From a virus: a stretch of 36,980 nt of DNA. The translations under genes were made by a program, and so were the position numbers. The stretch covers positions 1-36,980 of IMG/VR virus record IMGVR_UViG_3300037105_000058. One strand, 5' to 3'. A model generated the notes under the pieces. That model saw nothing but the letters and a program-made list of their open reading frames with translations, was not told the DNA's origin and did not search any database. Shown piece by piece: positions 994 through 27,869 of this stretch (the first letter of the stretch is position 1; every line of letters begins with the position of its first letter).

Positions 994-3780
994 TCACATG
1001 AAATCGCGCACGATGAGCACGCCTTGGGTTCCCGAGCCGCCCGCAGCGGTGAACCCTCCATTATTGGTGGTAACGCATCCACCCCCACCGGAAGCGTACC
1101 CCGTCGCTGGGTTTCCGTTGAGATACACTCCCGTCGCCAGCGCTATCGCAGCGGCGCCGCCTGCTCCGTACCGAGAGCTTGCCCCAGCCCCACTCAACGC
1201 CTCAGTGGATGACCATGCTATTCCGGGCAAACCGCTCGCCCCAGCGAACGACCACGTCGGAACGCCGCCCGTAGAATGCGCGACCCCCGCTCCACCGGCC
1301 TCCAACAGGGTTGTCGTAGTTGCGTAAGACGAACCACCGCCACCCTTAGCCGTGTAGGTCGTTGCTCCGATCTTGATGACGGTGTCTCCGCCCGTCGTCG
1401 AAACTGATGTACTCGTTCCGGCCGGGCCAGCCTTTCCGCAGTAGTAGTTCCAGGCGGCAATCGCGCTCCCGAGATTGTAGTGTAGGAACGCATCCTCACC
1501 AGCAGCGCCTCCGCCGGTGACCATGTAGTAGCTGCCGGGCGATGGGCAGTATCCCGCGCCGCCGCCGCCGCCCAGATATTCAATTTCCTCGCGGGTCGTG
1601 CCATTGGCGGGCGTGTAGACGATTGACGTCGACGTCGCGGTGGCGGTGGTTGTGAGCACCACCTCGGCCAATAGGCGACCGTAGCCGTACCCAGAAACAA
1701 CTGTCGTCGCCGCCCCTGTCCCGACGCTGCTATCGGTGCCTGTGCTGAGGAATAGCTCCATGCCCTGACTGCCCGAAACGGTGCTTTGCTTGCCGTCGAG
1801 GGCCGCCTGCAATCCGTTGATGCTCCCGATCGGCGGATGCCCCATGACGACGACGGATGCCGGGTTGGCGTTGGTACCCGTTGAGACCGACGTGGCCCCC
1901 GCGCTCTGCATGGTCGGCAGGTCGCCCACCTGAGCAGCGTTGACGCCGAAGCGGTGGGAGTGCAGCGCGGGCGACGGGTAGGTGTCGGTTCCCGTCGCTG
2001 TGGCGGTATTGGGAATGATAGGCATGGGCGCGACGTAATCCACGCCGGGAACTGGCGTTGGGTTGATCCACCCAGCTTCTCCGTCCGTGTACGTGTCGGT
2101 GCCAATCTGCGCTCCCACGGCGAGAATTCGACCACGGTAGGGAGTGCCTGATCCAATGTTGGCAGTCGGGACTTGCGCGCCTGAGTTCAAAGGCGCGTAC
2201 CCGTTTCCTGAACCCCTGTGCGCCACCAGCTCGTAGATTGACAGGTCGGGCTGCCACGCCACGGGTGTAGTGATCCGCGATGAATAGTACGAATTGTCCG
2301 CCAGCCCCACCGTCACGTTCGATGCGCTGGTGGTGACAGCCCAGACGCGCATGCAAATCAGATCGGTTAACGTTCCCGAGAGAGCGGCGACCGAGATGTT
2401 CGCATCTATCTCGGTGAGAGTAGCGCTGCTCACTGTCGCCACGGTGGCGTCCGATACGAGCAGTGTGGGGCTGCCGCACCCATTCGGCCCCCTGCCATAG
2501 TCGACGTGGATGGTCGCCGTCGCGCCACTCACCCGGGCGAAGAACCTCGTCCCCAGGGTGCCCGCCGGCCAATAGGCCACGTTCAGTGGCAAACTTTGCA
2601 TCATCGTGGCACCCGTGTAGAACGTGCCGGCGGTCTTGGAGCTGCCAGAATTGATAGTCACCGAGATGACATCGTTAGGGTCCGATGGAGGCGCCGAAGA
2701 CAGAATGGTGGAATTCTCGATCCCCCCGCCCTCGGTGTCGATCCACTGCGTACCATTCTGAATCGCGCCCACAGGATGAACATGCAGAGAGTCCGAGCAC
2801 ATGCCACCATTGCCTGGTGCCGCCACGCCGTCGGGCTGTGGGTTGTTCGGATCGAGCTTCACGATGCCTTGCCCAGACGTGCTGGCCTTGGGCAGAATCA
2901 CAACGGCATCATTGGGCGTTCCGACCGTTGACGTGCTCGACGCTGTGGCGGTGTTGGTCGTGGTACCGATGCGGGCCGAGGTTCCGAGGACACCACTACC
3001 CGCCGGGCCCGTGGCTCCCGTTGCTCCCGTCGAACCAGTCGCCCCGGTGGGGCCTGTCGGTCCCGCGGGGCCCGTTGCGCCAGTAGCCCCGTTGGTCCCG
3101 TTGGTTCCATTGCTACCGGTGGCGCCTGTGGCTCCCGTTGCTCCCGTCGAACCAGTCGCCCCGGTGGGGCCTGTCGGTCCCGCGGGGCCCGTAGGCCCGC
3201 TCTGCGGGTTTCCGCAGACGTAGTCCGTGTAGGTCGCCGTAGCGGTCGTGGTCGATGTGCCGTGAGTCTGAGGCACTTGGCCCTGGGCACAATTCGGCAA
3301 CACGGTTGGGGTGAACCCGAGAGCCCCCGTCACCTGACCACTGCTGAGAGCGTGCCACCCCCAGACGTTGGCGGCCGTGGAGGAAACGAATTGATTGGCA
3401 GCACTGGGCGCCGTCGCGTACCCGGCGGCGTTGGCGGCCGTGGAAGCGAAAATCTGACCGGCTGCAGTTGGGGCCGTGCCCCATCCCCACGCGTTGGCGG
3501 ACGTCGACATGCACATCTGCCCGGCCCCGGTCGGAGCGGCGGCGAACGCAGCAGTTCCGGCAGCAGTGGTGCTGAGAATCTGTCCGGCCCCCGTCGGCTT
3601 GGGAGAACCCAGTGTCGCCACCACTCCGCCATCGGCGGTCGCCAGGTAGCCGGCGGTCGTCTTGTTTGGGTAGCTCTTGCCGGTATTGTTGTCCTCGAAT
3701 AGGGCAGGGCCGGCGGCTGCGAAGGCCAGAGATGCCCCCAAGATAGTGATGAGCGCAGGGAGTGTGTTGCGTTTCTTCAT
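994..3780 (-). CDS. Large collagen-like, glycine-rich tail fibre protein with signal-peptide-like N-terminus
   Basis: A 928-residue fibre or adhesin. The chosen start is the ATG that shares one base with the preceding stop (TGATG), with GGAG 8 nt upstream; the frame is open further upstream but without a better start. Residues 1-24 (M-K-K-R-N then a hydrophobic stretch ending A-A-A-G) look like a Sec signal peptide, unusual for a virion protein. Residues about 62-147 hold four ~21-residue repeats built around G-A-G-Q-I and A-A-N-x-W-G-W, typical of fibre shafts. Residues 195-260 are 22 Gly-X-Y triplets (GPT, GAT, GPA), a collagen-like trimeric rod. A long beta-rich middle follows, then a Gly-rich C-terminal domain from about residue 737 with GGGGG runs, as in the host-binding tips of several phage adhesins. 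Receptor binding is inferred. Confidence 0.85.
3011..3192. repeat. 65-bp perfect direct repeat pair inside the collagen-like coding region
   Basis: Bases 3011-3075 and 3128-3192 are identical over 65 bp, with mismatches immediately outside on both sides. The offset is 117 bp, that is 39 codons or 13 Gly-X-Y triplets, so recombination between the copies would change rod length without shifting the frame. Confidence 0.95.
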
Positions 3781-6350
3781 CAAGTTGTCTCCGGGCTGAA
3801 CCACGGGCCAGCGGGGCGCCAGATGCCGCCACATTGTCGCAGTCGTAGGACACCGTATTGGTTGATTGTCACGTCGGGCGACGGGTAGCTCTGGCCGAGC
3901 GTGCCGAATGCCACGGCCCCGTAACTACCGTTTCCGGGTGAGCCCTGGTTGGTGATCGTCATCGTGTTCGAGAAGTAGAGCTCAAGAGAGTCGCCTATAT
4001 TTTTCCCAGTCAGCTCGATGCCGACGAGGGGGCCGGCGCCGCTGACGTCGACCGTGTTGCTCTTGACCGGAGGAGAGGCGGATGCGAGCGCGAGGAGCCC
4101 GCCGACGACCGCCACGGCCGTCGTGGGGGTTTGGACCCAGCCCGGCTCGATGTCGCTCATGGGGTGCGCGAGAAGCGGCGCATTGGCTGGAGTGAGGAAC
4201 GTCCCACGTCCCGTGAGGTCATTGTGGACCGTCGGGCCGCCACTCGACGGCGTGAAGAGCGTGTCGAACCAGGAAGCGTTGTCCCCACCACAGCGCACCT
4301 CGAAGACTTCGTCGGTGAGAGAGCCGCCCGTGACCACCAAAATCAAATCAGCTCGTAGCCGCCGCGCGCTAGAACCAGAAAGCCCGGTCACGTACAGGGG
4401 AAGTTGGAACGTTTGGTAGCTCGACGAGAGAACAGGTGCAGTTGGATAGGGCGCCATCTGGTAGATGTAGCCGCCCGTCACGTCGTACAACATCGCCTCA
4501 TAGACGATGCCAGAACCAGAGTACAGCGTGTACGTCAGCCCGCCGTGGGTATTGCGAACCCGCACGCGAAGATTTGCCAGCACCGTTCCGCTTGGCCAGG
4601 ATGTTAGGCCAGGCTCTCCGGGGGGCGAGTCGAACCAGATGTAAACCGGCGATGTTCCGGGATGCCCGACGTCGAGCGCGTGCGCTTCGTCGTAGGGGTT
4701 GGTCGTCGAGAGTAGGTAGCCCGTCTGTGGGTCGCCGGGGTCAGCCCGCGGAAGATCGCTCCCCTGCCCGGTCAGATAGTAGCGTTTGGTCAGCGACACC
4801 ACGGGCTGTGCCGGGTGCTGGTGACCCTCATTCGACTTCGGGCCAGATGCTCCCGCGGAACCCGCACCGCCGTCGATTGTCGGAATGGCGGTTGATACCG
4901 GCAGCTCGATGTTCTGAACACCGCCGCCTGCGCTCGTGACCGTGATGCTCCCATCGGTCGACTCGACGCTGTTGCTGCCTCCGCCGCCACCGCCCGTCGC
5001 CGCGATCTGAACCGTCTCGTGCGGCTCGCTGCCGGCCTTCGTGATCGTGACGTTGGCACCTGCGGAGAGCTTGGCGAAGAGATAGTCCGCGATGTCTCCT
5101 GCATCGACCGAGACCTTGTGGTCAGATGCTCCAGTGGGATTTCCGGACGGGGCAAACAAGGTGTCGATGTAGCTGGCGTCGTCACCCCCACATCGGATCT
5201 CGAAAACCTCGCTCGCGATTGCGTGGGGACCTACCTTGAGTGGAGTCATCGCCCATCGCAGACGGTCCAGCGCGTTCATGCCGGTGATGCGCCAATACTC
5301 CGGCAGCGACTGCACCGCAATGGCTACGTAATAGGTGACGTAGGTCGACGTTATGGGGAAGTCGAACTCTCCCGGCAGTGGCTCTGTCTGATAGCCAAAC
5401 GGTCCGTGGTCGTCGCCGACGCAATACCGTGCAAGAACAAGTTGCCCCTCTCCGGTGCCGAAATTCAGATAGTAGGTGTTGCCACTCTGGGCATTGCGGA
5501 CGCGCGCTCGAATGACGACATTGACGATGCCACCGGACCAGTTGAGGATTCCCGGCGTCCCCGCAGGGGAGTCGGTATTGGCTACTCCCCAATTGGTTCC
5601 CGTCACACTCGACGGCGCGAAGTCGTAGGCACCTGCTTCGGTGGTCGGATTCGTCAAAGAAAACTGCGAGTGGACCGCTATCCCATCGGTCAGGTTTGAA
5701 TGGTCGTGGGTGAAATAGTACCGATTGGTTAAGGCGGGTATGGGCCTGCTTGGAACCGCAAAATTCACCCGCTTGCCTGAGACGTCGTCCGTGATGATGA
5801 CGCTGCCGTCGGTCGACTCGACCTTGCCGAACAGGTAGTCGGGGCTGTCGTCGTACTCGTCCGACATCACCTTGAAGGTGTCGGTGGTCCCGCCGCCGGA
5901 TCGAATCTTGGTGAGCCAGCGGTTCAACATCTTGATCCAGCCCTGGGCCACCATCGGATCGTAGACGTCCTCGTCGGACTCCCCCGGCCCCAACAGCCTC
6001 AATGGACGGTTGCCTGGAGCGAGAAAGCTCTCCAGAATGGCCACGCCTCCACCGATCGCGAGAGCATCAGGCGCCCCACCGTTGACGATGCACTGGACGA
6101 TATACGTCCCCACCACGTCGACCGTGAACGACGCCACCTGAGCAGTCCCGAGGTAGCGTGGTTCCGGCCCGGGCCCGCCCGCCGCCGAACCCTCGGGCCT
6201 TCCGACGAGTCGCCAGATGTAGGAGTTGGCCCCGACGTTGTCGGTGAGCGACACCGAGATGACATCGTCGATCGCCAGGTCCTGACGCCACTCCGCGACG
6301 GCCGCATCGCCGTTTCGGCTGAACTGGAGAGTGGCGGACTGGAACCCCAT
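3780..6350 (-). CDS. Tail fibre / baseplate-attached structural protein with duplicated modules, 856 aa
   Basis: An 856-residue modular virion protein. Residues about 1-110 look like an Ig/PKD-like beta-sandwich ([13 protein letters not shown], later [11 protein letters not shown]), a fold common in phage appendages. Two copies of a ~300-residue module follow: each begins with N-R-Y-Y-F-T or K-R-Y-Y-L-T and ends with a near-identical motif, [13 protein letters not shown] near residue 379 and [13 protein letters not shown] near residue 681, each followed by D-T-L-F. Poly-Gly linkers separate modules. It starts 2 bp after the upstream stop with no clear Shine-Dalgarno, suggesting coupled translation, and shares one base with the next fibre gene. 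Fibre or fibre-connector function is inferred from architecture and position. Confidence 0.8.
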
Positions 6351-7898: not shown

Positions 7899-9371
7899 TC
7901 ACTGCATTGGGCTGACCCAGAAGGTGCCGACGAGCCGCATGGAACTGGCGACACTGCTCTTCACGAGACCTTGGATCTGAGTGACCCGCTGGCTGAAGTA
8001 GCCGATCTTTTCGAGTTCAAACGTCCTGAGTGGCATCCCGTCGGTGTTCGTCTTCCAGCCCGAGTCGAGAACGGTCGAGTCCGACAACGTGATCTGAACC
8101 TTGTAGGCGTCGGTCGTCGGATCGAGAATCAGTGCCCCGCCTGGGACGTCGCATGTCACGAGCCCATCGCGCAGTAGCCAAGATCCACTGGTGGGCGTGA
8201 ACGTGAACGCGACTACCCCGGTTGGCGACGGAGTGACTGAGTCGGTGGCCGACAGGACATCCACGCACTCGACGTAGGTGTCGAACTGGATGCCGCCCGC
8301 CTTCTTAACCCGCGCCTCTTCTTGAATTGCCCGCAGGGACGCGCGCAGCACGGGGTGCAGTCCGATGTCCGGGTATCCCCACACCGGATCGTCGCAGAAT
8401 CCGTCATCACAGTACAGGACCGAGCCGTCCGGCTCTTCCAGCGGGCCGTCAATGGCCAGGCGGAAGTAAGCCCGTCCCTCCCGAATCGAAGGCGTCTCGC
8501 ACGTGCGGAACGGCCCCTTGCCCGGCACGCTCACGCCCAGTGGGTCGTCGCAGAACCCATCGTCGCAAAAGACCGAGTCGGCGAACACCAGATTGATGGC
8601 CGTTCGCGCGTCGTCGGTCGCCTGGTCGCGCATGGGTTCCACCATGTAGACCGGCGGAAGGTTGCCCTGCGACTGCGCGCCATGGACCGCCTCTTGAATC
8701 GCGATCGGTGTGACGGCGTCGGGGATGGCCCGAACCCGCAGCCGGTATGCTTCGCCGTCCTCGTTGGGCTGGCGATGACAGCCGCGCTCGTCGCCGTGAG
8801 CGGACAGCCAGTCCATCTTGGCCCCCACGATGGTGGTAGAAGCCGCGTAGGTGAGCGTGCCTTCTCCGATGCCGAGCAGGTAGACACCGAGGGTGTCCTG
8901 CACGACCCCGTCATCGGGAGACAGGATGACGTCGAGTGTGTCGCCTATTGACAGGACGTCGTCGAACGCCGGATCCACTGTGTTGACCAAGTCGATCCAT
9001 CGAAGTGATTGGAGAGGAAGCGTGATGCTGGTCTGGTGGGCCGCGACCGGCACATCCAGGCTCACTGCCAGCTCGACGCCCGTGCTGGTCAAAAACTTGT
9101 AGCCCTTGGGGATTGTGGCGGTCGCGATCGAGTCCACACGGGTCAACGTCAGATTGCACCGGCCCGGGCAGCCAGAAGGCGCGGTCGAGATCATGCAAGC
9201 GTCGACCTGCTCCATCAGGGCATTGCTGGTGGCCTCGAAGACCGAGCACTTGCTGGCGATGATGGCCTGCCCGTCGGGCTGGCGGAGCATGCCGTTCAGC
9301 CAGCCGTCGTCTGTGGTCCGGCGCAGCAGCGCCAGGACTTCGGCTTGAGTGATGGGGCCGCTATCGCTCAT
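7899..9371 (-). CDS. Baseplate J-like wedge protein with duplicated CDDGFCDD motif
   Basis: A 490-residue protein overlapping the upstream J gene by ATGA. Its N-terminal half carries the J-like signature of a 'G-Y-K-F-L-T-S-T-G-V-E' strand followed near residues 203-231 by E-D-G-E-A-Y-R-L-R-V-R-A-I-P and a helix, as in wedge proteins of the gpJ/gp6 type. The motif C-D-D-G-F-C-D-D occurs twice, at residues 269-276 and 321-328, and there are further cysteines at 42, 59, 68 and 72. The C-terminal third is beta-rich. In Mu-like baseplates the J gene is followed by gpI/gp48, so this may be a combined J-like/I-position protein. The assignment rests on motif pattern and position. Confidence 0.7.
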   Translation of the reverse strand: MSDSGPITQAEVLALLRRTTDDGWLNGMLRQPDGQAIIASKCSVFEATSNALMEQVDACMISTAPSGCPGRCNLTLTRVDSIATATIPKGYKFLTSTGVELAVSLDVPVAAHQTSITLPLQSLRWIDLVNTVDPAFDDVLSIGDTLDVILSPDDGVVQDTLGVYLLGIGEGTLTYAASTTIVGAKMDWLSAHGDERGCHRQPNEDGEAYRLRVRAIPDAVTPIAIQEAVHGAQSQGNLPPVYMVEPMRDQATDDARTAINLVFADSVFCDDGFCDDPLGVSVPGKGPFRTCETPSIREGRAYFRLAIDGPLEEPDGSVLYCDDGFCDDPVWGYPDIGLHPVLRASLRAIQEEARVKKAGGIQFDTYVECVDVLSATDSVTPSPTGVVAFTFTPTSGSWLLRDGLVTCDVPGGALILDPTTDAYKVQITLSDSTVLDSGWKTNTDGMPLRTFELEKIGYFSQRVTQIQGLVKSSVASSMRLVGTFWVSPMQ

Positions 9372-10504
9372 TGGAAGGTCACGCTCGTCGGAAGAACGCG
9401 AATCATTTGCGTCGGATCAGTCGGAACCACGTCGCCCAGCGGATAGACCAAACTCGCATCGCTGAGGATGACTCCGGGCACCGCCTTGGCCGCGGCCAGG
9501 AGCGAGGACCTGTACAGCACCCCGTTGTCCGGGCCCGGGGCCAAGAACTGTGAGACCGCGACCGTGACGGCGCGAACCCGAGCCGTCGCCAAGTCCTCGT
9601 CAAAGCCGGTCTGGAAGGCGAGCGCCCACGTGACCGACTGGAAGAACACTGTTCCGCCGCTCACCACGACCGGCATGCCGCCGGCCCGGTAGCTCAAGAG
9701 CTTGTCCGACACCGCTTGAATCATGGCGGAGGTGGCGTTGCCCGAGCGATCGCCGATCACCAGTTGCACGATGCCCGCTGGAAAGCCTCCCTGAGGGTTC
9801 AAGATCTCCGTAGCGGTGGCGACTACAACCCCCGGAACCTGCTTGGCGCCGTACTCGATGGCCCCCAGGACGCCCCTGCTGAGCGTCGGGAAGAAGCCCC
9901 GATAGCGTCCCAGATACTCGATGTCGCTCTCGGCGTCGGTCCCGCCGGCCGCTGAGTCTGGATTGTGGACCGTCAGGGTCGTATCGAAGGGCGTGCTCGA
10001 GAACGCCACAATCCCCATCCCGGTTGTCGGGTCGTAGGCCGGGACGTTCTGGTCAGCACCAGACAGGACCGACGTGGCTGCCACCGTCACCGTCGTGGTG
10101 GCGTCATGAAAAACCGCGTCCGTGTCGAGAGCGAACTGTGTGCCGTCGGCCGCCTGCACGACCGAGCCTGAATCCACGACGCCCGGCGTGGCTACGCTCG
10201 GCGAAGGGCGGGACAGCACCAAGTCCACGTGGGCCGGAGTGGCTCCGAATCGCGTGAGGCCCGAGCGGTCATAGATGACGCGGTCGAGCTGCGACTGGCG
10301 GGCCGTCTCGGCGAACGCTCCCCGCATGGCAGCGGCGCCGCGGGTCGACACCTCTTCGCCGATGACCGCGTCGGTCCCCACCGCCAGATTCAGATCGCTT
10401 CCTGGAATGTCCACCACCGCCGGGTTGATGCGGATGCCCGGCGTGGAAGCGATGGCCCGTCGCCCAATTGAGAACAAGTCGGCCCTTGATGCAAAGAGAC
10501 TCAT
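9368..10504 (-). CDS. Baseplate J-like wedge protein
   Basis: A 378-residue protein of the baseplate J family (P2 gpJ, Mu gp47, T4 gp6 C-terminal region), a wedge component that forms the ring around the spike. Supporting features are the strand 'D-G-T-Q-F-A-L-D-T-D-A-V-F' near residue 120, the central G-G-T-D-A-E-S-D-I-E-Y-L-G-R-Y block (the family's 'tDaEsdeelR'-like position), the helix ending at K-Q-V-P-G-V, and a C-terminal region with repeated AVxxxL turns. It overlaps both neighbours by 4 bp (ATGA), following the gp25-like gene exactly as in other contractile-tail systems. Confidence 0.88.
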   Translation of the reverse strand: MSLFASRADLFSIGRRAIASTPGIRINPAVVDIPGSDLNLAVGTDAVIGEEVSTRGAAAMRGAFAETARQSQLDRVIYDRSGLTRFGATPAHVDLVLSRPSPSVATPGVVDSGSVVQAADGTQFALDTDAVFHDATTTVTVAATSVLSGADQNVPAYDPTTGMGIVAFSSTPFDTTLTVHNPDSAAGGTDAESDIEYLGRYRGFFPTLSRGVLGAIEYGAKQVPGVVVATATEILNPQGGFPAGIVQLVIGDRSGNATSAMIQAVSDKLLSYRAGGMPVVVSGGTVFFQSVTWALAFQTGFDEDLATARVRAVTVAVSQFLAPGPDNGVLYRSSLLAAAKAVPGVILSDASLVYPLGDVVPTDPTQMIRVLPTSVTFQ

Positions 10505-24717: not shown

Positions 24718-25115
24718 CAGGAGGCGTCCCCCGCGATGAAGTAGCTGACGGTGGAGTTGGTCCCGATGAACTTGATGGCCGTGAAGGCGTCGTCGGGGTT
24801 CGGCTGGTGGAAAATCTGCATCCCGCCGCCGCTGAGGGGGATTTCTTGATCGACACCCGCGGCGCTCGTCAGCAGCATCGTCACGCTGTCTCCAGTCGCG
24901 CGAACGATCAGCACCCGGACCTTGGCGACGTTCTCCAATGGAAGAACGAACGGCGCTAGCAACGTCGCGTCGCTGATGTCGTCTTGGCTGGTCTTGCTGG
25001 CCTCGTAGGCCGCGCAGAAGCTCGTATCGAACGGCCCGCAGGCAAGCCCAATGGAACAACCACTCGATGCGGTTCCGATCGCAATCCCAGAGTGCTTCAC
25101 AATCACGGGACTCAT
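24717..25115 (-). CDS. Hypothetical beta-rich structural protein, 132 aa
   Basis: ATG 25113-25115 overlaps the upstream stop by one base (TGATG), with GGAG 7 nt away. A GTG one codon earlier is only 4 nt from that site and is less likely. The protein is beta-rich and contains F-D-T-S-F-C-A-A-Y-E-A-S, S-D-A-T-L-L-A-P-F-V-L-P, A-K-V-R-V-L-I-V-R-A and A-I-K-F-I-G-T-N at the end, a compact single-domain pattern. No named family. Capsid decoration or neck function is possible from context. Confidence 0.6.
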   Translation of the reverse strand: MSPVIVKHSGIAIGTASSGCSIGLACGPFDTSFCAAYEASKTSQDDISDATLLAPFVLPLENVAKVRVLIVRATGDSVTMLLTSAAGVDQEIPLSGGGMQIFHQPNPDDAFTAIKFIGTNSTVSYFIAGDAS

Positions 25116-25528
25116 CACGAAACTCCGATCATGCCGGTCTGAACCTTGCCACCGAGCGACTGCAGCGCCTTGAACCGCGCCGAGAAAGGGTAGATCGTAC
25201 AGTGCAAGGTGTCCGACAGGCGGGCCACTTGCCGCATGTACTCGCCCTCCAGCATGTTGGTCTCGTTGGCGTTCAACTCGATGCCGTCGACCTTGCTGGC
25301 CTGCATGCGGATCTGAGCGTCGACGATGGCCCCGTCGATCATGTCGAGTCGGGATACCAGCTCGCGAACAAGCGACTCAGCCGCCGGCAGCAACAGCACG
25401 AAGGACCGTTCCAGCAGAGTCATCAGGGGACTGTCGAGGGGGACGCCGGCCGACAACGATGGACCAGCCGAAAGGTTCGGATAGCCCATGTGATAGCGGA
25501 TGCGAACCTTTTCCCCGTCGCTCAGCAT
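25115..25528 (-). CDS. Hypothetical helical neck protein, 137 aa
   Basis: A 137-residue largely helical protein: S-F-V-L-L-L-P-A-A-E-S-L-V-R-E-L, L-D-M-I-D-G-A-I-V-D-A-Q-I and E-G-E-Y-M-R-Q-V-A-R-L-S-D. Helical proteins of about this size next to the capsid gene often are head-tail connector subunits (gp6/gp15 type), but I see no diagnostic motif. It begins 1 bp after the upstream stop and shares one base with the next gene. Confidence 0.6.
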   Translation of the reverse strand: MLSDGEKVRIRYHMGYPNLSAGPSLSAGVPLDSPLMTLLERSFVLLLPAAESLVRELVSRLDMIDGAIVDAQIRMQASKVDGIELNANETNMLEGEYMRQVARLSDTLHCTIYPFSARFKALQSLGGKVQTGMIGVS

Positions 25529-25529
25529 G

Positions 25530-25907
25530 TCAGGTGACCGGCTCCGTACGAACTTGGTTCAGGATCTCACGGAACCCCGAGTTGCTGTAGACGTTGGCGT
25601 CGAGCACGTCGCCGGCGGTGAACCGGCAGGGGTAGCCTCCGATGATGACCTTGGCGCTCTGGAGCACGCGCACCCGCGTGCGTGGGGCTTCGACGACGGG
25701 CATCTTGATGTCGTCCGGCGTGGTGTCGCCCATGAAGTTCTGCGCCACCGTAACGTCCAGTGCCTCGACAGGAGAGTGCTCGGCCTTGAACTCTTCGACC
25801 GTCACCGCCACCCCGGCGAGGGGATCTTCTTTGACGGCCGGGGGCGGCGCAGCGCCCTCGCCCGGCTTGTCCTTCTTCTTGGCTGACCTATCGCTCATCA
25901 GGCTCAT
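25530..25907 (-). CDS. Hypothetical protein downstream of the capsid gene, 125 aa
   Basis: A 125-residue protein with AGGAG about 7 nt before ATG 25905-25907; an in-frame ATG three codons later is also possible. The first 30 residues are Lys/Pro/Ala-rich and probably flexible, followed by V-T-V-E-E-F-K-A-E-H and a C-terminal part with R-V-R-V-L-Q-S-A-K-V-I-I-G-G and F-T-A-G-D-V-L-D. It is the first confident gene after the 537-bp gap behind the capsid gene. Function unknown. Confidence 0.62.
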   Translation of the reverse strand: MSLMSDRSAKKKDKPGEGAAPPPAVKEDPLAGVAVTVEEFKAEHSPVEALDVTVAQNFMGDTTPDDIKMPVVEAPRTRVRVLQSAKVIIGGYPCRFTAGDVLDANVYSNSGFREILNQVRTEPVT

Positions 25908-25990
25908 GGGGTTTCTCCTGGTCGAAAAGAGGCGGGACGTAGGACTCCAGCGCGTGCAGATACATGCTTTGTCCCAGCACGATGGGGTCT

Positions 25991-26440
25991 GCTCTTGCGA
26001 GAGCCGAACGTCATGGCCGAAGCCACCGGCCGACGAAAATCATCGGGGCCGCCAGAGGGGGACGCGGTTCCGTGGCCACAGGCCAGAGTCTGCGTTCCCC
26101 GAACGCAGCACAACATCTCGGACACGGCACGAGGCCAGTTCGAGTTCGCCATCAAAAACGGGCGCATCCGCTGAGTGACCAGACCAAGCGAGCGCGTATC
26201 CGTAACCATCAGGCGACAAGTGCTGCTAACCGACATGTTCGTATAGGCGAGCGCCGAAGCACCGCCACCACGTCGGCGGGCCAGAACACAGCGACACGAT
26301 CGCGTGTGTTTACGACTCGAAAAGAGTCCAGGCCCATTTATTGGCCCGAAGGCCAAACTCGACGATGGCATACCCGCCGGCTCAAGAGCCGTTCGTGTCG
26401 GGTATGCCTCGTGTCCAAACATAGCTCCTCTGAGACGAGG
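25991..26440 (-). ncRNA. Candidate structured non-coding RNA between capsid and neck genes
   Basis: Between the capsid stop (26445) and the next confident start (25907) there are 537 bp without a convincing gene, while neighbours are packed to within a few bases. In minus-strand orientation I find a chain of local hairpins: 26427-26440; 26367-26408 (10-bp perfect outer stem enclosing 26378-26391 with a CUUG loop); 26341-26356; 26314-26328; 26294-26307; 26246-26266; 26090-26108 (8-bp stem, GGG loop); 26073-26085; 26030-26046; 26013-26026; 25991-26004. Three of them (26341-26356, 26246-26266, 26013-26026) are closed by C(UUCG)G, the very stable RNA tetraloop; on the opposite strand those loops would be CGAA. 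That points to an RNA made with the capsid message. There is no U tract, so it is not a simple terminator. No known RNA family is recognised. Confidence 0.45.
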
Positions 26441-26444
26441 TTGG

Positions 26445-27869
26445 CTAGACGTGCTCGCAAACGACGCAGCGCTTATAGCGCGCAGAGTCACCAGTCGCAG
26501 CGTCGGTGCGGGTCGGCCAGTCCATGATGGTCTTCCACACGCCGGTCACGAGATCGCCCATCACGTTGACAGGCGCCCGAAGGTAGCACTGCACGCGGTC
26601 GGCGTTGACTTCCACGCCGTTGTTGGTGAGCTGGCTGAAGTCGCCAATCTCGCCGTTGATGCCGGCCTCGGTGATGAGCCCGCGCAGGTCCGCGTAGTAC
26701 TCGTAGATGGCCTCGGCGCCGATGAAGATCGGGCGCTGCACTTCCGTGCTCGGAATCGCGCTGATGGTGGCGCCGGTCGTGAACTCGCCGCCGAAGCGCT
26801 CGCCCATTCGCGCGTTGCCGTTGTAGGCGTTCTGCAGGCCGCCCGCGATGTTGGACTTCTTCGGGGTCTCGGTGTCGTTAAACACCAGTGTGCCCAGCAC
26901 GTCGCCCAGTGTGAACTCCTTGTACCAGTAGTAGTCAGGCAGCGAGGTCAGGAGCTTCTGCGCCTCGTCGCTCGAGAAGAGCTGGTTCTTGGAGTAGCTG
27001 TTGAAGTGCGAGTGGTAGAAGCCGTCGGGCATCTTGGGGACGTTCGAGTCCTCCAGACGGGCCACCGCCTGGCGGAACATGTCGAACGTGAACGTCGAGG
27101 TCGCCGCGAGACCGTCGACTGACAGCATGGTCGAAGCCGGCCGCACGATGAAAGAGCAGTCGTCCGACCAGACTGGATCACGCACTGCCAGTGTCACAGT
27201 TTCCGCCACCATCAGAACGCCGGGGCCCGTCTCGTCGCCCGAGTACGTCGGGGTGAACCCCGTCACAGTGGCGTCGTGGGTGACACCGGCGTTCTTGTAG
27301 TGAATCTTGAGCGGGTTGGTCGGCGAGACGGCCGAGAACTGCACGGGAGATCCCGCCGACAGGTCGGGACGACGCGAGGTCGTGAGACCGTTCAGCCGAG
27401 CGACCGTGATGGTGGTGCCGGACGCCTGCACTGCCGTGCAGACCGTCTGTCCACTCAGGCCTGCGTTGTACAGGCGGTCACGCACGCAGCGGTTGAGCGA
27501 CTGCGCGGCATGCAGCCCGAGCTGGTGCACGTTGTTGGTGAACAGGTTGGCGATGGCCACGATGCTCGTCGGCATGCTGGTGTCGGGGCAACGACCGGCA
27601 TACTGGTGGAGCTGCATGTTCCACTGTTCTTTTTCGTAGTCGATCGCTTCCGGCTCATCGCGCGGGTTCAGCGGGTTGGTGGTGGGGGCCATCAGGCCGT
27701 TCCCCGTGAAGACGAACTGATCGCCAGCCTGGCCGGGTTGCAACACCGGGGCCGCTTCACCGCGGAACAGGTTGCGCGGGTACAGTGCGTCCTTCATCTC
27801 GCGGATGAGGGCGTTGTCTTGCACGAGGGCTCGAATCGTCGGATCTTGCTGAATGACTGAGAAGTCCAT
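26445..27869 (-). CDS. Major capsid protein
   Basis: A 474-residue capsid protein with AGAGG about 6 nt before the ATG, placed directly after the scaffold gene. Features consistent with the HK97 fold are the N-terminal helix (P-T-I-R-A-L-V-Q-D-N-A-L-I-R-E), the long loop F-T-G-N-G-L-M-A-P, helix A-I-A-N-L-F-T-N-N-V-H-Q-L-G-L, and the C-terminal P-I-F-I-G-A-E-A-I-Y-E-Y-Y-A-D-L-R-G region. No N-terminal maturation delta domain is obvious, so a separate scaffold is probably used. The protein ends R-C-V-V-C-E-H-V with a CxxC pair. Confidence 0.85.
   Translation of the reverse strand: MDFSVIQQDPTIRALVQDNALIREMKDALYPRNLFRGEAAPVLQPGQAGDQFVFTGNGLMAPTTNPLNPRDEPEAIDYEKEQWNMQLHQYAGRCPDTSMPTSIVAIANLFTNNVHQLGLHAAQSLNRCVRDRLYNAGLSGQTVCTAVQASGTTITVARLNGLTTSRRPDLSAGSPVQFSAVSPTNPLKIHYKNAGVTHDATVTGFTPTYSGDETGPGVLMVAETVTLAVRDPVWSDDCSFIVRPASTMLSVDGLAATSTFTFDMFRQAVARLEDSNVPKMPDGFYHSHFNSYSKNQLFSSDEAQKLLTSLPDYYWYKEFTLGDVLGTLVFNDTETPKKSNIAGGLQNAYNGNARMGERFGGEFTTGATISAIPSTEVQRPIFIGAEAIYEYYADLRGLITEAGINGEIGDFSQLTNNGVEVNADRVQCYLRAPVNVMGDLVTGVWKTIMDWPTRTDAATGDSARYKRCVVCEHV

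Follow-up and report, generated by a model that had tools for sequence, protein, structure and literature searches.

Results

Genes and Features of the Head Region

The window analyzed here is the whole of a 36,980-base fragment from an uncultured virus, which its baseplate-J and collagen-like tail-fibre genes mark as a tailed, probably contractile-tailed, phage. One minus-strand gene (994-3834) encodes a tail-fibre-like protein with collagen repeats that matches Pfam Collagen and several PHROG tail fibre families. The head genes, likewise on the minus strand, include those of a scaffold-like protein and of the major capsid protein, the latter followed by a 537-bp interval and two small genes. 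The product of the capsid gene (26445-27869; phrog_1357, E = 2.2e-5) is homologous to the capsid proteins of Streptomyces phage Kromp and Komagataeibacter phage phiKX1. The first small gene (25530-25907, minus strand; 125 aa) is without a PHROG match and has a weak homologue in the relative L204, and the second (25115-25528, minus strand; 137 aa) provides a syntenic landmark: 96 of 101 relatives carry its homologue behind the capsid gene.

An initial annotation of this DNA proposed that the 537-bp interval, 25908-26444, contains an ornate non-coding RNA. The coordinates are correct, with the capsid stop codon at 26445-26447 and the start of the next gene at 25907, and the proposal is supported by folding, by covariation, and by the lack of protein constraint. 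ARAGORN found no tRNA genes in the 37-kb window, and a consensus scan found no sigma-70-like promoter near the RNA. Among cultured phages, no nucleotide relatives were found. The group is almost entirely uncultured: among cultured phages, only Kromp and Komagataeibacter phages phiKX1/2 have a related capsid protein, at ~28% identity. In Kromp and phiKX1, whose regions were read, the next gene starts within ~58 nt of the capsid gene. In bacterial genomes, a capsid-alignment scan returned no relative and a motif scan returned 88 chance matches, none of which fits the RNA profile. A search for hosts gave no genome with a capsid match among 396 from the phylum of an Acidobacteriia locus, and one with weak capsid matches among 399 from the phylum of an Alphaproteobacteria locus.

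A Conserved Fold Downstream of the Capsid Gene

Read on the minus strand, 25908-26444 has a folding energy of -231 kcal/mol, compared with -211.8 kcal/mol (SD 7.2) for 100 dinucleotide shuffles (z = -2.67), none of which was as good. Homologues were gathered by an IMG/VR capsid search and by capsid-independent searches with two conserved stretches of the RNA, which gave 12 distinct lineages. In all 12 of these close lineages the RNA region is located 3′ of the capsid gene, and it occurs once in each of the five 54-83 kb records that were searched for additional copies. The consensus fold, which was built on the 15-sequence alignment A4 and spans ~490 nt, contains 157 pairs in 25 helices (the tool's own helix count).

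In this fold 92.3% of the alignment cells are paired, versus 80.7% when partners were shuffled among sequences and 38-43% when they were slid. The same controls apply to the number of pairs with changes on both sides (91, versus 46 shuffled and 25-34 slid) and to the covariation score (0.373, versus 0.162 shuffled and 0.075-0.101 slid). A phylogeny-aware test of all column pairs identified three pairs at E <= 0.05, all of which are standard pairs in every sequence; because this test has low power with 15 sequences, we used helix counts with controls. The covariation among homologues is massive, with the fold maintained through hundreds of compensating base changes that support one common structure for the capsid-downstream RNA family. 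There is very little doubt that a genuine structured RNA, conserved in evolution, is present in the window.

Architecture of the RNA

The structured RNA as a whole (25925-26412; like all of its parts, on the minus strand) begins at the foot of the first helix and finishes with the 3′ U-tract, its ends being placed by conservation in the A4 alignment and consensus fold. P1 (26364-26412) is a long first helix (26412-26401/26375-26364) that encloses an invariant CACG(A/G) strand and a small hairpin and shows both-side changes in 8 of 12 pairs, a count made with the alignment one column out in part of P1. The perfect 10-bp stem (26399-26408/26367-26376) singled out in the initial annotation is real and forms the core of this strongly covarying helix. 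P2 (26341-26356) is a 6-bp UUCG hairpin, with 97.8% of cells paired and both-side changes in three pairs. P3 (26278-26335) is a three-way junction with the invariant loop UCGUG, whose helices 4-7 are 97-100% paired except for the small helix 6, and P4 (26229-26277) is a long, bulged UUCG hairpin with an invariant ACGAA, whose helix 8 is 97% paired and has both-side changes in six of nine pairs. The P5 domain (26105-26226; helices 11-15) consists of a closing helix, a long branched arm, and a second arm. P6 (26057-26100) carries a signature element at 26094-26063, which reads CGCAGACUC-hairpin-GGAACCGCG in the window and GCAAACCC-hairpin-GGAACCGC in its family form.

The 3′ domain (25931-26053; helices 19-25) has three arms and is closed by GGCGG (26053-26049) paired with CCGCC (25935-25931), a helix that reads GGYGG/CCRCC across A4. 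It includes an H-type pseudoknot (25963-25986), in which a hairpin (25981-25976/25968-25963) with both-side changes in five of six pairs presents a GGG loop (25975-25973) to CCC (25986-25984). The loop pairing itself covaries, being UCC:GGA in L040, AACCC:GGGUU in L049, and CGC:GCG and CGU:ACG in L205/L206. The closing helix is followed by a 3′ pyrimidine/U tract (25925-25930), a feature also visible in the TTTT statistics of long-gap loci given below.

Two other observations that had drawn attention to the interval fared differently. The three C(UUCG)G loops were confirmed: CUUCGG occurs at 26351, 26259, and 26022, all on this strand, where base composition predicts 0.24 occurrences in the interval, and UUCG hairpins also recur among the homologues. 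In contrast, the 8-bp stem reported at 26090-26108 is present in the window sequence but lies outside the conserved fold, because its 5′ arm is partly used by the covarying helix 26220-26226/26105-26111.

Divergent Relatives at the Same Position

Two further capsid scans and the A3 scan brought in wider relatives with capsid identities of about 30-60%; all sequences in the analysis are metagenomic. The distance from the capsid gene to the next gene in these relatives is either ~80-150 nt or ~310-600 nt, as judged from automatic start calls, some of which are wrong; one or other kind of gap is seen in capsid relatives to as low as ~40% identity. The long gaps have a mean folding z of -5.1 over 38 loci, versus -1.5 for the capsid coding sequences of the same loci, values that derive from 25 shuffles each and from a set in which some loci are near-duplicates or possibly coding. 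Separate groups of relatives show covariation of their own: L253/L262/L271/L280 are 95.4% paired with 38 both-side changes, versus 3-9 slid, L205/L206/L211 are 98.2% paired with 16 such changes, versus 0-2 slid, and other groups behave likewise. A covariance model of the 3′ domain, R1, weakly matched the expected location in L257 (3e-4), L181 (0.002), L207 (0.006), and a few more.

The signature, searched for as GCAAACCC-N(10-24)-GGAACCGC, is exact in 25 of 365 fetched loci (~18 distinct sequences by our count), all 25 times 180-345 nt after the capsid stop and on the same strand, whereas simple base counting predicts well under one occurrence. It is missing in L045, L047, and L049. A slightly relaxed form is found in 22 of 90 long-interval loci and in none of 15 short-interval loci. 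A regular-expression scan for the pseudoknot, which is indicative only, matched 56% of long gaps versus 3% of capsid controls, and also 2 of 15 short-interval loci. Moreover, 22 of 37 long-gap loci, versus 3 of 25 short-gap loci, have a TTTT within the 60 nt that precede the next gene; the frequency is 8.7% among other gap windows and 0.9% among capsid windows.

The position of the RNA is constant, although its immediate surroundings are not. In L040, a 178-aa ORF with an HNH-endonuclease-like Cys/His pattern, spotted by eye, lies at 9166-9702 between the capsid gene and an intact RNA, and the RNA thus needs no contact with the capsid stop. Two loci have a tRNA-Tyr gene inside the structured gap (L315:4031-4117 and L316:2881-2967). 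Together with the intervening ORF, these cases indicate that the RNA region tolerates both separation and insertion. Sister lineages have plain short hairpins or a terminator at the spot occupied by the RNA; in L182, a relative without the RNA, a canonical terminator-like hairpin stands directly behind the capsid gene (5418-5449). On the capsid tree, RNA-bearing and RNA-lacking phages are intermixed, and the RNA must thus be dispensable in many relatives; this distribution suggests its repeated loss or gain. Collectively, these comparisons describe a wide and fast-diverging RNA family of uncultured tailed phages, marked by its position, the signature, the 3′ pseudoknot domain, and the U-tract, with the qualification that not every member has all of these marks and that for the wider family only the signature, the pseudoknot, and the structuredness have been shown.

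An Open Frame Through the RNA

The interval had been described initially as having no convincing gene. This description overlooked a 172-codon open frame (25904-26422, minus strand) that has a good Shine-Dalgarno sequence and an ATGA overlap with the next gene, although the frame is without any coding signature. The frame is open in all 12 close lineages, and in 11 of them, L040 being the exception, the start codons align in a single column. Stop codons in its phase fall in three distinct columns, all in the 3′ part, versus 17 and 24 columns in the other phases, and after indels the register is regained in every lineage until near the 3′ domain. When columns and pairs were permuted among lineages with the structure preserved, each of 500 trials put more stops into the frame's phase than the real alignment has. 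In the close clade the best open frame is also longer than in dinucleotide shuffles, with a combined p of 9e-6 that is optimistic because the lineages share ancestry. Although the sequences lack independence, internal controls are provided by the two remaining phases. Outside the close clade the length effect is not significant (combined p = 0.11). In L181, the matching frame is open over most of the RNA.

Tests of codon position, dN/dS, BLOSUM scores, and codon usage found no purifying selection on the amino acids encoded by this frame, which is the one conserved frame in the interval. Between the window and L005, substitutions at the three codon positions number 32, 32, and 30 in the frame, versus 85, 72, and 151 in the capsid gene of the same pair. 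The dN/dS of the frame is 0.72-1.01 in informative pairs, parsimony changes per site are 2.11, 2.13, and 1.99 by phase, and amino acid replacements are no more conservative than those in another phase. In bits per codon, the codon-usage log-odds lie between -0.15 and -0.40 for the frame and between +0.12 and +0.48 for ten genes of the window. As judged by these measures, the frame is not an ordinary gene. Nor can it encode a readthrough or frameshift product of the capsid gene, because its frame relative to that gene varies between lineages. Furthermore, L247, L248, L271, and L316 have stops in every frame and yet have highly structured gaps (z = -5.9 to -8.3), which indicates that the family keeps the RNA and not the frame. 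A stop-free, amino-acid-neutral frame that is restored by compensating indels is an odd evolutionary signature and deserves an explanation of its own.

Discussion

The present study suggests that the interval behind the capsid gene encodes a discrete, ornate RNA that is released from the late head transcript and acts in trans. We assign this explanation, taken as a whole and including its mechanism, a probability of roughly 55%. Its size, its pseudoknot, and the conserved signature in an internal loop point to a folded RNA that acts as such; together with the signs of co-transcription and of a defined 3′ end and with the tolerance of separation and insertion, they lead us to favor a discrete trans-acting molecule. 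The RNA would form the 3′ portion of the late capsid transcript; that it is made together with the capsid mRNA is suggested by its co-linearity with the head genes and by the consensus scan that gave no sigma-70-like promoter close by. Its 3′ end would be set by the long closing helix and the U-tract, via termination or processing, such that a discrete RNA is released while part of transcription continues into the downstream genes. The released RNA would then fold into a stable particle acting late in infection, with plausible roles in head assembly, in packaging, or in shaping host translation. Within the close clade, ribosomes may initiate at the conserved start codon immediately behind the capsid stop and proceed through the RNA; this would account for the avoidance of stops without amino acid constraint, as the peptide itself would be irrelevant. 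Three features count against this explanation. The fixed place in one intergenic space and the hairpins or terminator of sister lineages fit a role in cis equally well; a free RNA would not usually have a conserved open frame such as that of the close clade; and the mixing of RNA-bearing with RNA-lacking phages on the capsid tree shows that many relatives can dispense with the RNA.

The main rival is accordingly a cis element of the head mRNA, because the RNA always occupies this one place, which in sister lineages holds plain hairpins. Such a 3′ UTR or attenuator would ensure that far more capsid protein is made than downstream head proteins: it would stabilize the capsid message, terminate a share of the transcription, and mask the ribosome site of the next gene with the CUUUU tract. 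Consistent with this, the U-tract adjoins the downstream ribosome site, and in most close lineages the open frame stops at or near the start of the next gene. However, the RNA is far larger and more elaborate than control of dosage needs, 80-150 nt suffices in the short-gap relatives, and the signature internal loop and the pseudoknot are kept beyond what a terminator needs. We give a cis-acting role odds well short of even.

A second alternative makes the frame itself the device: ribosomes crossing the RNA would unfold it, such that folding and translation compete, and would couple translation of the capsid gene to that of the next gene or shield the transcript from Rho. This reading accounts for the combination, across 12 lineages, of stop avoidance, frame-restoring indels, and absent amino acid constraint, and for the length of the frame relative to shuffles and its open counterpart in L181. 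It is nevertheless unlikely, given that the effect is not significant outside the close clade, that some lineages have closed frames, and that L040 is without a start codon at the homologous column. Least probable, and already largely refuted, is a protein-coding gene of ~172 codons with a structured mRNA, for which the start codon and open frame of the close clade and the paucity of stops relative to the 500 permutations would speak, but which is contradicted by the flat substitution pattern across codon positions, a dN/dS near 1 (0.7-1.0), the unconservative replacements, the negative codon log-odds, and the absence of the frame in the four lineages with closed frames.

To our knowledge, only a handful of large ornate RNAs have been described, and their functions are mostly open. 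The RNA described here is apparently a new family of large phage RNA, with divergent relatives at the same spot in dozens of uncultured phages. Since the family is linked to a single defined location, the capsid message, a function in head production becomes a concrete and testable hypothesis, for which the RNA-lacking relatives with a plain hairpin at the same spot are natural controls. With more reserve, and at clearly less than even odds, we propose the fuller statement that this is an undescribed, widespread family of large RNAs made from the capsid message, with a structural or regulatory part in head morphogenesis, and that in one clade it is crossed by ribosomes while the peptide is left unconstrained.

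No Rfam family matches the window or its homologues (cmscan with all 4227 models at gathering and permissive thresholds), the sole match being to tRNA in L316, which is the tRNA-Tyr gene noted above. Literature searches that covered mainly open-access papers turned up no account of a comparable RNA downstream of a capsid gene. The initial annotation had mentioned GOLLD and ROOL without claiming kinship, a caution that was right. Both are large phage RNAs, often located near tRNA islands, that form RNA nanocages and whose function is not known (PMC12286853). ROOL, which is 659 nt long in the solved example, is an ornate RNA of phages and prophages with pseudoknots (PMC12286853), and the present RNA resembles it as a large, ornate phage RNA with a pseudoknot. 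It differs in that the model does not match and in that it lies 3′ of a capsid gene and not near tRNA islands, with no tRNA in the window. GOLLD has a conserved 3′ region, a more variable 5′ region, and sometimes a tRNA in its linker (PMC12286853), and the tRNA-Tyr inside the gap of L315/L316 resembles the latter. In our distant relatives the 3′ pseudoknot domain is recognizable, yet the P6 signature in the middle of the RNA is also widely kept. GOLLD again has no Rfam match here; many GOLLD RNAs exceed 800 nt, in contrast with ~490 nt in this case, and the location in the head operon is distinct. ROOL and GOLLD thus appear to be the nearest in kind, but membership in either is not supported, because the models do not match and the location differs.

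OLE RNA is also large and ornate, but it is bacterial, comes from extremophiles, has no tie to phage head genes, and gave no Rfam match. The packaging RNA (pRNA) of phi29 is a phage-encoded structural RNA of ~174 nt tied to head function; its family, too, has no Rfam match here. Group I and group II introns are rejected, having no Rfam match, with the capsid gene and the next gene complete on both sides, as is a HEARO/OMEGA RNA, which has no Rfam match and for which a neighboring HNH-like ORF (178 aa) is seen only in L040. Terminators just behind phage capsid genes, such as the terminator-like hairpin of L182, are alike in position, whereas the present RNA is a multi-domain fold of ~490 nt with a pseudoknot. 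It is thus best described as a new family within a known kind, the large phage RNAs, and is set apart by its constant place behind the capsid gene and by the amino-acid-neutral frame of one clade.
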